Source of the DNA: Armatimonadetes bacterium 13_1_40CM_64_14 | GTDB taxonomy: Bacteria; Sysuimicrobiota; Sysuimicrobiia; Sysuimicrobiales; Kaftiobacteriaceae | NCBI GenBank assembly: GCA_001917855.1 | Contig: MNEU01000007.1 | Span: 1-50,018 of the forward strand | Direction of reading: 5' to 3' | DNA length: 50,018 bases | Part shown: positions 27,885 through 32,780 of the stretch, one piece after another | Layout: each line of letters begins with the position of its first letter | How positions within the stretch are numbered: position 1 is the first letter of the stretch | Translations under genes and position numbers: made by a program | Notes under the pieces: model-generated | Seen by the model: the letters and a program-made list of their open reading frames with translations, nothing else | Told to the model about the DNA's origin: nothing | The model's database searches: none

Positions 27885-28091
27885 ATGAGTCAATGTCACC
27901 TCTGCGGTACCCCGGATACCGCAACGGTCTTGATCAAGTGTCAGTGGTATGGCCGGGGGACGAAATGGCTGTGCATCCAGTGTGTGCGCACAGTCACCGT
28001 GGGAGACACGAGTCCGTCTCCTGCGAAACCTCGTAGTGCTCGCGCCGTCCGCGGGCGAGTGGCCCCGGAAAGCGGACGCACGATCTTGTGA
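27885..28091 (+). CDS. Small zinc-ribbon-like protein
   Basis: 68 aa from ATG 27885: MSQCHLCGTPDTATVLIKCQWYGRGTKWLCIQCVRTVTVG (CxxC...CxxC); frame also open upstream to an ATG at 27813. Confidence 0.45.
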   Translation: MSQCHLCGTPDTATVLIKCQWYGRGTKWLCIQCVRTVTVGDTSPSPAKPRSARAVRGRVAPESGRTIL

Positions 28092-28145
28092 TGGTAGTTG
28101 CGGAAGTCAATAGTAGGCACGCAAGAGTAGGACCGGCGAGGAAGT

Positions 28146-28250
28146 GCGCCTAGGGTTCCGCCGCACCTACCCGGTGTGGGTCTGGTTCTAGCGGCGCAGG
28201 CCGGCGAAACTGCCGGTTACACCGTCGGGAGAGAAGCCCGAGGGGGAAGT
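28146..28250 (+). ncRNA. ykkC subtype-2 riboswitch aptamer (probably ppGpp, subtype 2a)
   Basis: GCGCCTAGGGTTCCG ... CTGGTTCTAGCGGCGC ... TTACACCGTCGGGAGAGAAGCCCGAGG; stems GCGCC/GGCGC, CCGCACC/GGTGTGG, CCGGC/GCCGG, CGGG/CCCG; immediately upstream of a terminator and gltB. Confidence 0.8.
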
Positions 28251-28324
28251 TCCTCATCCGGAAGGGCAGTAACGCCTTCCGGACCTGGAGACAGGGATGA
28301 GGGGCTGTCCTCTCGGGCTTTTTG
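28235..28324 (+). terminator. Riboswitch expression-platform terminator upstream of gltB
   Basis: AGCCCGAG (28235-28242) pairs with CTCGGGCT (28312-28319), T-rich tail; its 5' arm overlaps the 3' conserved strand of the aptamer; nested CCTCATC/GATGAGG and CCGGAAGG/CCTTCCGG. Confidence 0.82.
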
Positions 28325-28343
28325 TATCTTGCGCTGAGGTAGC

Positions 28344-31300
28344 GTGCGGATGAACGGCTTGCGAGTGGGCGAAGAGCGAGACGCCTGCGGAGTAGGATTC
28401 GTTGCGGATGTCCGAGGACACCGCAGCCACGCCATTCTGCGTCACGCGCTGACCGCCGTTGCGAACTTGAGCCACCGCGGGGCCACCGATGCCGACGGTC
28501 GGACCGGAGACGGTGCGGGGGTGCTGACGCAACTTCCCTATGCGCTGCTGCGTCGGGACCTGACGATCCAACACCCCGATGACCACTTGGCGGTAGGGAT
28601 GCTCTTTCTTCCGCCCACGCCCGATGAGCGCGGGAGAGCAGTCGCGCTGGTGGAGAAGGCCATTGCCGATGAGGCTCTTGGTCTGGTCGGATGGCGGCGG
28701 GTGCCCACCGATTCCCAAGCGCTAGGCGCGCACGCCCAGGGGACGCAGCCCTATGTCGCGCAGGTGGTGGTGCATCAAGCGGGGGAGGTGTCCGGGGATG
28801 CGTTTGATCGGTGCGTGTACTTGTGTCGCCGAAGGATTGAGCGGGAGGCTGTCCAGGCGAACCTGGCGGTGTATGTGCCGTCGTTTTCTCGCCGGACGAT
28901 CGTCTATAAGGCCCTGCTGAGTTCTCCGTGGCTGGCTCGATTCTATCCCGACCTCACCGATCCGACGTATGACACGGCGCTGGCGGTCTTCCACCAGCGC
29001 TACAGCACAAACACATTTCCCAGTTGGAACTTGGCCCAGCCCTTCCGGTTCTTAGCCCACAACGGGGAGATCAATACGCTGCAGGGCAACATGCACTGGA
29101 CGCGGGCTCGGGAGCCTGAGCTCGGGTCCGCGGTCTGGGGCCAGCGGACGCAGGATGTGGTCCCGGTGATCCAAGAGGGCGGGAGCGACAGTGCGATGCT
29201 GGACAACGTCGCCGAGCTGCTCACGCTCTCGGGACGCGACTTCGCCCACGTCATCACGATGCTGGTGCCGGCGGCATGGGAGGCTGACGCTGAACTTGCC
29301 GCGCCGCTCCGCGCCTTCTACGAGTACCACACCTGTCTTACCGAGCCCTGGGATGGTCCAGCTGCCCTCGCATTTTCGGACGGTGTTGCCGTCGGGGCGA
29401 CGCTGGACCGCAACGGACTACGGCCCGCACGGTTCCTGGTGACCCACGACGGTTTGGTGTTGATGGCGTCGGAGGTTGGCGTGTTGGACATCCCCCCGGA
29501 CCAGATCCAGGAGAAGGGCCGGCTGGGACCCGGGCAGATGCTGCTCGTGGATACCGCCAGGGGCAGAGTCTTGCGCGATGCGGACGTCAAAGCCGCACTC
29601 GCTGCGGCCCAACCCTACAGTCAGTGGGTACGTGAGAACCTCATACGCCTGGGGCCAGTTCCGGTCAACGGCGGCGCGGGAGAGGCATCTGCTCTCGCCC
29701 AGCAGGTCTTTGGGTACACGCTGGAGGACACCGAACGGATTCTGTATCCCATGGTGGCGGAGGGGAAGGACCCGATCTTCTCCATGGGCGATGACATCCC
29801 CCCCGCAGTGTTGGCGACCCGGCCGCGACTCCTTTACAACTACTTCCGGCAACGGTTCGCCCAAGTCACCAACCCGGCGATCGATCCCTTGCGTGAGCGC
29901 GGGGTGATGTCGCTTGCGGTCTACCTCGGCCCGCGCCCGACGTTTCTGGAAGAATCGCCCCACCATGCCCGTCTGCTGCAACTGCCTGACCCGATCCTGG
30001 GACCCGACGAGCTCCGCTGGTTGCAGACCCAGGGGCCGTTTCCCACCCGCATCCTCCCCGCCCGATTTTGGGCGGCCGACGGACCCGCAGGGCTCGCGCG
30101 TGGGTTGAACGCGCTCGTCGACGAGGCGGAGGCGGCGGCCCGAGCGGGAGCGCTGATCATCCTCAGCGATCGAGAGTTCGATACGCAGTGGGCGCCGGTC
30201 CCCATGCTGTTGGCTGTGGCCGCCGTTCACCACGGTTTGATCCGTCGAGGATGTCGCATGCGCACCAGCATTATCGCCGACACCGGAGAGGCGCGTGACA
30301 TCCACCAGATAGCCTGTCTGATTGGCTATGGCGCAAGCGCAATCAGCCCATACCTGGTCTTCCAGACGCTCGCGGCCGACCCCCGGATTCCGGGCGACGC
30401 ACACGCGCGGTGGGCATCCTACTCCCGAGCGGCAGCGGCGGGTTTGCTCAAGATCATGTCCAAGATGGGCATCAGCACACTCGCCGGCTATTGCGGGGCG
30501 CAGATCTTCGAGGCCGTGGGACTGGACGCGCCCCTGATCGCAGACTACTTCCCTGGGACTCCGTCGCGGATTGCCGGAATTGGCCTGACCGACCTCGCCG
30601 CCGAAGTCCTCGAGCGCCACCGCGCGGCCTTCTCCGGTCCGCCGGAGCCGCTGACGGAAGCGGGCCTCGTCCGTTTCCGCCGGGGGGGAGAGTATCACGC
30701 CTTCAACCCGTACGTGGTCAAGGCATTACACCGGGCGATCCGGGACGGCGCGTCGCACGAGACGATGGTAGACCTGATCAAGTCCCGCCCGCCGGTGGCG
30801 TTGCGTGATCTGCTAGAGTTCGTCCCTCAGCAGCCCGTCTCGCTGGGAGACGTCGAAGCAGTGGAGGCAATTGTGCAGCGCTTCGTGATCTCGGCGATGT
30901 CGCACGGAGCTCTCAGCCTGGAAGCGCACGAGACGCTGGCGATTGCGGCAAATCGCGTCGGCGCCCGATCGAACACCGGGGAAGGCGGAGAGGATTCCGC
31001 GCGCTACCGGACAGAGTCCAACAGCCGTATCAAGCAGATCGCCTCGGCACGCTTTGGCGTTACCCCCGCGTACATCTTGTCGGCCGACGAACTGGAGATC
31101 AAGATGGCGCAGGGAAGTAAGCCAGGTGAAGGCGGCCAGTTGCCGGGGCATAAAGTCTCAGCAGAGATAGCGCGCATCCGCCGCGCGCAGCCGGGCATCA
31201 CCTTGATCTCGCCCCCTCCGCACCACGATATCTACAGCATTGAGGATCTCGCGCAGCTGATCTACGACCTCAAGCGAATCCACCCGCGCGCCCGGGTGGG

Positions 31301-32780
31301 CGTCAAATTGGTCGCCGAATCCGGCGTCGGGACGATCGCGGCGGGTGTGGCGAAAGCGTTCGCTGACACGATCCAGATCAGCGGCCATGACGGGGGGACC
31401 GGCGCCTCTCCCCTGGACTCCATCAAGAACGCCGGGGTGCCGTGGGAACTCGGACTTGCCGAGACGCAGCAGGTTTTGGTGGCCAACGGCTTGCGGTCCC
31501 GCGTGCGGCTGCGGGTAGACGGCGGAATGAAGATCGGCCGGGACATCGTGATGGCCGCGCTGCTTGGGGCCGATGAATTTGGCTTTGGGACCGCGGCGGT
31601 CGTTGCCCTGGGCTGCGTGATGGCCCGGCAGTGTCACCTCAACACCTGCCCGGTGGGCATCGCCACCCAAAACGAGACGCTGCGCGCGAAGTTCAAAGGC
31701 ACGCCTGAGATGGTTATGGCCTATCTGACCGCGGTAGCAGAGCAAGTGCGGGAGATCCTGGCATCTCTGGGGGCGCGGTCGATCCAGGAAATCATCGGTC
31801 GCGTCGAGTTGCTCCGACCCCGGTCCGTCGACCATCCCAAGGCCGCGCGGTTGAACCTTGACGCGATCCTCAGCCCCCCTGATCCGTCGGGGACGCGGCC
31901 GCGGCAGAATACGGCAGCCCGCAACGATCGGCAGGAGGACATTAACCTCGATGCTCAGATCGTTGCGGACGTGCTCGACAGGAGCCGCCACGGCGAACCA
32001 CTACATTTGCGCTATGCGATCCGCAATGCCCACCGGACCGTCGGGGCCGGGCTGGCCGGGATGCTGGCCGAGACCCACGGGGATGCGGGATTGCCTGAAG
32101 GCGCGATCACCGTCCACCTGAGCGGCGCTTCCGGACAGAGTTTCGGGGCCTTTTGTCTGCCGGGGGTCACCCTGGACCTAGAGGGGGAGGCCAACGACTA
32201 TGTCGGCAAGGGCATGGCCGGGGGAGAGATTGTCATCCGGCCGCCCGAGGCATTTGCAGGTGCCACGCAGCACAACGTGATTCTCGGGAACACCGCACTG
32301 TATGGCGCCACCGGCGGGTATCTGTTTGCAGCGGGGCGAGCGGGAGAGCGCTTCGGCGTGCGCAACAGCGGCGCCACGGCGGTCGTAGAGGGTGTGGGTG
32401 ATCACGGGTGTGAGTACATGACAGGCGGCGTCGTCGTGGTGCTGGGGTCGGTCGGGAGGAACTTTGCTGCTGGCATGACAGGCGGTGTCGCGTATGTGCT
32501 GGACGAGCCGCACGTCTTGCCGATCCGGTGCAACCCAGAGCACGTGAGCTGGGCGCGACTTGGTGATCCCGCCGAGGAGGGGTGCGTCCGAGACCTGATC
32601 GCCGGCCACGCGCGGCGAACCGGGAGCCCGTGGGCGGAGGAGATTCTTCAGCGCTGGGCCGACTACGCCCCGCTGTTTTGGAAGGTGGAGCCAAAAGCGA
32701 GTGGAATGCCAGCCGCGTCCGCCAGCCCGCCATCCCGTCGCGAGATTCTGGCAAATACCGCCAGCACTGCCCGCGTGTGA
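28344..32780 (+). CDS. gltB: Glutamate synthase large (alpha) subunit
   Basis: 1478 aa; RDACGVGFVADVRG N-terminal Cys amidotransferase, FMN domain GGLRSRVRLRVDGGMKIGRDIVMAALLGADEFGFGTAA, CHLNTCPVGIATQ, C-terminal GXGXG domain. Confidence 0.95.
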   Translation: MRMNGLRVGEERDACGVGFVADVRGHRSHAILRHALTAVANLSHRGATDADGRTGDGAGVLTQLPYALLRRDLTIQHPDDHLAVGMLFLPPTPDERGRAVALVEKAIADEALGLVGWRRVPTDSQALGAHAQGTQPYVAQVVVHQAGEVSGDAFDRCVYLCRRRIEREAVQANLAVYVPSFSRRTIVYKALLSSPWLARFYPDLTDPTYDTALAVFHQRYSTNTFPSWNLAQPFRFLAHNGEINTLQGNMHWTRAREPELGSAVWGQRTQDVVPVIQEGGSDSAMLDNVAELLTLSGRDFAHVITMLVPAAWEADAELAAPLRAFYEYHTCLTEPWDGPAALAFSDGVAVGATLDRNGLRPARFLVTHDGLVLMASEVGVLDIPPDQIQEKGRLGPGQMLLVDTARGRVLRDADVKAALAAAQPYSQWVRENLIRLGPVPVNGGAGEASALAQQVFGYTLEDTERILYPMVAEGKDPIFSMGDDIPPAVLATRPRLLYNYFRQRFAQVTNPAIDPLRERGVMSLAVYLGPRPTFLEESPHHARLLQLPDPILGPDELRWLQTQGPFPTRILPARFWAADGPAGLARGLNALVDEAEAAARAGALIILSDREFDTQWAPVPMLLAVAAVHHGLIRRGCRMRTSIIADTGEARDIHQIACLIGYGASAISPYLVFQTLAADPRIPGDAHARWASYSRAAAAGLLKIMSKMGISTLAGYCGAQIFEAVGLDAPLIADYFPGTPSRIAGIGLTDLAAEVLERHRAAFSGPPEPLTEAGLVRFRRGGEYHAFNPYVVKALHRAIRDGASHETMVDLIKSRPPVALRDLLEFVPQQPVSLGDVEAVEAIVQRFVISAMSHGALSLEAHETLAIAANRVGARSNTGEGGEDSARYRTESNSRIKQIASARFGVTPAYILSADELEIKMAQGSKPGEGGQLPGHKVSAEIARIRRAQPGITLISPPPHHDIYSIEDLAQLIYDLKRIHPRARVGVKLVAESGVGTIAAGVAKAFADTIQISGHDGGTGASPLDSIKNAGVPWELGLAETQQVLVANGLRSRVRLRVDGGMKIGRDIVMAALLGADEFGFGTAAVVALGCVMARQCHLNTCPVGIATQNETLRAKFKGTPEMVMAYLTAVAEQVREILASLGARSIQEIIGRVELLRPRSVDHPKAARLNLDAILSPPDPSGTRPRQNTAARNDRQEDINLDAQIVADVLDRSRHGEPLHLRYAIRNAHRTVGAGLAGMLAETHGDAGLPEGAITVHLSGASGQSFGAFCLPGVTLDLEGEANDYVGKGMAGGEIVIRPPEAFAGATQHNVILGNTALYGATGGYLFAAGRAGERFGVRNSGATAVVEGVGDHGCEYMTGGVVVVLGSVGRNFAAGMTGGVAYVLDEPHVLPIRCNPEHVSWARLGDPAEEGCVRDLIAGHARRTGSPWAEEILQRWADYAPLFWKVEPKASGMPAASASPPSRREILANTASTARV

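Follow-up and report, generated by a model that had tools for sequence, protein, structure and literature searches.

A putative ppGpp riboswitch of ykkC subtype 2a upstream of gltB in Armatimonadetes bacterium 13_1_40CM_64_14

The window analyzed here, a stretch of 50,018 nucleotides from contig MNEU01000007.1 of Armatimonadetes bacterium 13_1_40CM_64_14, carries on its forward strand a structured leader RNA directly ahead of gltB, the gene for the large subunit of glutamate synthase. The gltB frame starts at ATG 28350 (GTG 28344 is also possible), contains four Pfam domains and matches NF008730 with 1722.6 bits (cut-off 1047), in line with the placement upstream of gltB made in a first-pass annotation of this DNA. 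The next genes are one resembling amino-acid transporters, for which NCBIfam gave only weak matches, and glnA. On the opposite strand, a single frame at 25620-27458 (-) combines a PAP2 phosphatase domain with an MGDG-synthase-like and glycosyltransferase part, and is possibly a fusion in lipid or glycolipid metabolism. The features of the leader and its gene are the following:

28138-28255 (+): aptamer of ykkC subtype 2a (ppGpp type), from P0 to P0, as assigned from RF00442, the class model R1 and the minimum-energy fold
28138-28143 (+): 5' strand of P0, GAGGAA, with its partner at 28250-28255; three double changes across 43 copies
28145-28198 (+): P1 (28145-28150/28193-28198) with P1a/P1b inside, including CTAGGGTTCCG at 28150-28160 and the subtype letter C28192 (position 49)
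28200-28217 (+): P2 (28200-28205/28212-28217), with double changes in 5/6 pairs
28219-28249 (+): J2/3, P3 (28225-28229/28237-28241) and the ligand pocket, from the motif numbering of PMC6031431 and a structural alignment with comparators
28220, 28241, 28248 and 28249 (+): pocket letters by motif numbering, namely C28220 (C75), A28241 in place of G96, A28248 in place of G104 and G28249 (G105)
28250-28255 (+): 3' strand of P0, TTCCTC, common to the terminator
28235-28323 (+): intrinsic terminator in the minimum-energy fold; its 5' arm, 28235-28257, comprises the 3' sides of both P3 and P0, its 3' arm is 28297-28319, and it encloses two hairpins and ends in a T-run at 28319-28323
28350-32780 (+): gltB

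At gathering cut-offs the default Rfam scan gave no match in the window, and a permissive scan of 28000-28400 was used for this reason. It returned a full-length match to RF00442, the ykkC aptamer model, at 28139-28247 (+) with 59.3 bits and E=3.3e-10, thus bearing out the covariance-model check that the first-pass annotation had proposed. The score lies below the gathering score of 63 bits, which is expected because the RF00442 model describes guanidine-I. Copies of this kind escape the default scan and would be mislabelled if named after the family, Guanidine-I. Entries named as microRNA, lncRNA or IRES in the permissive output were set aside as chance or hairpin matches. Across the whole genome RF00442 has exactly two matches, the gltB leader and one on another contig. 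All the conserved blocks quoted in the earlier reading are present in the ykkC order within 28146-28324, CTAGGGTTCCG being joined by CTGGTTC (28182-28188), TTACACCG (28217-28224) and GGGAGAGAAGCCCGAGG (28227-28243). The element delimited there as 28146-28324 is real, but the 5' strand of helix P0 had been left out. Folded alone, 28121-28255 adopts the four-way junction P0-P1-P2-P3 as its minimum-energy structure, and the leader folds better than 200/200 dinucleotide shuffles (z=-4.15). The class model R1, built from 43 aligned copies, scores the window with 113.8 bits at 28136-28255, a value reached partly by construction since the window copy is among the 43 model sequences.

RF00442 searches of 43 genomes (species) of the window's class, which is a single order, recovered 44 copies in 33 of them, the window genome included, with one to three copies per carrier species. 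The gene that follows is gltB in 24 cases, of the ilvB type in 18 and citramalate synthase, which serves isoleucine synthesis from pyruvate, in two. The latter are third copies lying directly before citramalate synthase (TIGR00977, ~800 bits) in two related genomes (L145 1354-2979 and L147 2116-3723, both on the reverse strand). In two of the 18 ilvB-type cases, L118 616-2526 (+) and L136 696-2609 (+), the first gene encodes a distant acetolactate-synthase-like protein of ~640 aa, far below family cut-offs, which in L118 lies ahead of the true ilvB. The second ppGpp-type aptamer of the window's own genome (L001 1198-1606, reverse strand) carries a terminator of its own, after which come a T-box (RF00230, E=2.8e-14) and the genes ilvB-ilvN-ilvC-leuA-leuC-leuD-leuB; tandem ppGpp/T-box leaders are described in the literature as probably acting as an AND gate (PMC9481103). 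By eye, the T-box specifier looks like CTC (Leu), and a clear TTGACA-type promoter lies upstream of this copy. When run against 80 gltB loci of other bacteria (two Clostridium and one Paenibacillus included), a few of which hold little upstream DNA and so provide no test, the class model matched at no better than chance level (E=0.33). Of 148 genomes drawn from the class of Clostridium caldaquaticum, 19 match RF00442 with all subtypes counted, against the 33 of 43 in the window's class. Putative ppGpp riboswitches are thereby placed throughout this class, whose genomes are mostly drafts, in about three quarters of the species searched and on two pathways only (glutamate and branched-chain amino acids), which suggests that stringent control acting through RNA is a main route in this class.

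The pairing scheme was evaluated on 43 of the 44 class copies, L155 being left out for its long P2 insertion. RNAalifold recovered P0, P1, P1a, P2 and P3 from these copies without being supplied a structure. Standard pairs fill 97.0% of cells against 90.0% in shuffled alignments, and both partners vary in 13 of the 26 pairs against a shuffled mean of 7.2; in both cases 0/500 shuffles were as high, counts that are not probabilities given that the aligned sequences are related. Pairing falls to 41-54% when partners are shifted by one column. P0 itself is paired in 97.7% of cells, with double changes in three of its pairs. The copy left out (L155 3735-3901, reverse strand, genome G017) precedes gltB, has a P2 arm ~50 bases longer and, read by eye, spells P0 as GCGA/TCGC.

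The ppGpp riboswitch corresponds to ykkC subtype 2a (Sherlock, Sudarsan and Breaker 2018, as relayed in PMC5912903 and PMC7266159). Solved structures of PRPP- and ppGpp-binding aptamers have their two ends paired as P0, which is part of the expression platform, whereas guanidine-I is without P0; a pyrimidine at position 49 separates subtype 2 from guanidine-I, and G96 separates PRPP from ppGpp (PMC6031431). As comparators we aligned Clostridia and Paenibacillus copies with the window, their classes being set by downstream genes as named from our own reading of the translations (purL/purC for PRPP; small multidrug transporters and others for guanidine-I; natA-type ABC ATPase and ilvB for 2a). 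C28192 aligns with the A of the guanidine-I comparators and, together with the add-on helix P0, argues for subtype 2 and not guanidine-I. The PRPP-specific G96 is absent, with A28241 in its place, which argues for the ppGpp class. C28220 (C75), the pairing partner of the ppGpp guanine, is retained. Both published tests, at positions 49 and 96, thus put the window on the ppGpp side as far as its letters can tell, and the inspection of specificity nucleotides suggested in the first-pass annotation for telling 2a from 2b came out as it had anticipated. That annotation preferred ppGpp over PRPP from gene context; an amino-acid context does accompany 44/44 copies, but the decider is the binding-site letter and not context only. 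It had also named glutamate synthase as a 2a target, and glutamate synthases are indeed listed among the subtype 2a genes at the definition of the class (PMC5912903). Judged from sequence, the leader before gltB is almost certainly a ppGpp riboswitch of an already known kind, and we consider it highly probable that it is a ykkC subtype 2a RNA with ppGpp as its ligand and antitermination control of gltB transcription. What is new is only the bacterial lineage, the comparators having been Clostridia and Paenibacillus copies, and one unusual binding-site letter.

The terminator is built from the aptamer's own strands. The segment 28235-28255 pairs in it with 28299-28319, the fold of 28234-28319 reaches -57.5 kcal/mol, and the entire leader attains -110.3 kcal/mol in the terminator fold versus -97.0 kcal/mol with the aptamer enforced. 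The arms noticed earlier, AGCCCGAG (28235-28242) and CTCGGGCT (28312-28319) with T's to 28323, belong to this structure; aptamer and terminator are mutually exclusive in the folds, as had been claimed, but P0 competes with the terminator alongside P3. A hairpin from the same strand and downstream sequence follows 44/44 class copies with varying T-runs; a terminator scan requiring a T-run gave none for 15 copies, in which the hairpin was seen by reading each and some T-tracts are weak. In another ppGpp riboswitch, ppGpp stabilises the equivalent helix (there P1) against the terminator, and read-through has been measured (PMC10687018). By analogy, a P0 held by ligand should allow read-through, and we infer that the gene would be ON with ligand. 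When ppGpp is absent, the 3' sides of P3 and P0 would pair downstream to form the terminator just before the gltB start codon. Amino-acid starvation would raise ppGpp, presumably made by the RelA/SpoT protein encoded in the genome (E=2.3e-40); ppGpp would then occupy the pocket of P3 and P0, with C28220 as partner of its guanine, and once bound would stabilise P0, block the terminator and allow gltB to be transcribed.

A promoter scan found no consensus sigma-70 promoter just upstream of the aptamer, and the best candidate by eye has 8/12 matches (TTGTGA 28086-28091 and AATAGT 28109-28114); several relatives have clear TTGACA-type promoters. A 68-codon open frame at 27885-28091 (+), MSQCHLCGTPD...WLCIQCVRT, with two CxxC pairs and a zinc-ribbon-like appearance, ends ~50 bases before the aptamer and matches nothing in Pfam or NCBIfam. 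Should this frame be a gene, the promoter of the riboswitch must sit either at the end of the frame or ahead of it.

The unusual letter is A28248. Its column, which precedes the final G of [A/G]GGTTCC, holds G in 43/43 other class copies (L155 read separately from the alignment). The letter corresponds to G104 by motif, not by structure, with G28249 (G105) kept, and both solved complexes have a ligand contact at the N1 of G104 (PMC6031431). A base that probably touches the ligand is thus naturally replaced at A28248, and one could envisage a 2a-derived RNA in which ppGpp binding has been lost or much weakened through G104A, leaving gltB mostly terminated or constitutively attenuated. However, all other pocket letters and helices are intact, and in the terminator fold A28248 pairs with T28306, where relatives mostly have G-C, so that the letter looks maintained and not decayed. 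An A is also present at the same column in five Clostridial natA/2a-like copies (L174, L177, L178, L180 and L181). Because the terminator has changed to match and natA-type copies provide precedents, we regard such a loss of function as quite improbable; the partner T28306 makes an assembly error less likely as well. We take A28248 to be tolerated variation, perhaps with a changed affinity. A more specific proposal, in our opinion unlikely, is that A28248 and T28306 retune the pocket, such that the gltB switch differs from the ilv-leu switch of the same cell in ppGpp threshold or alarmone preference. If true, this retuning would lead to graded starvation responses.

One rival identity is the PRPP riboswitch (subtype 2b), which would have the same fold and would switch gltB on by sensing PRPP; P0 and nearly all conserved letters are common to the window and 2b (PMC6031431). 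Yet G96, >97% conserved in 2b (PMC6031431), is absent, GCCCGAGG standing where purC/purL copies have GCCCAG[G/T]CGGG (the window reads GCCCG-A28241-GG, and the register at 96 is uncertain in 2a, also according to PMC6031431), and a purine gene follows 0/44 class copies, making PRPP a very improbable ligand. A guanidine-I riboswitch, the identity that the name of RF00442 as sole matching Rfam family would suggest, has next to no probability with C28192 where guanidine-I has A (the position of A46), a P0 that is present and covarying unlike in guanidine-I, and a guanidine transporter or carboxylase downstream of 0/44 class copies. Both identities were rejected on letters 49 and 96 together with P0, and the ppGpp riboswitch of subtype 2a is the reading we retain.

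Set against known systems, the window has in common with guanidine-I RF00442 (subtype 1) the P1-P3 core and the CTAGGGTTCCG and ACACCG/AAGCCCG blocks, but differs in having P0, in carrying C and not A at the diagnostic position, and in its genes. The NDP riboswitch (ykkC 2c), compared by gene context alone, has a NUDIX/HAD hydrolase context unlike that of the class copies. With the PRPP riboswitch 2b (PMC5912903, PMC6031431) the window shares P0, almost the whole consensus and, as predicted here, an ON switch by antitermination, whereas G96 and purine genes are missing. From the ppGpp riboswitch 2a it departs in the A at the G104 position (also found in natA/2a-like comparators), in a branched and unusually long terminator, and in a lineage outside Clostridia. 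In contrast, the core fold, P0, C at 49, the lack of G at 96, C75, the gltB, ilv-leu and amino-acid context, a terminator exclusive with P3-P0 and the tandem T-box at the ilv copy are all shared with 2a.
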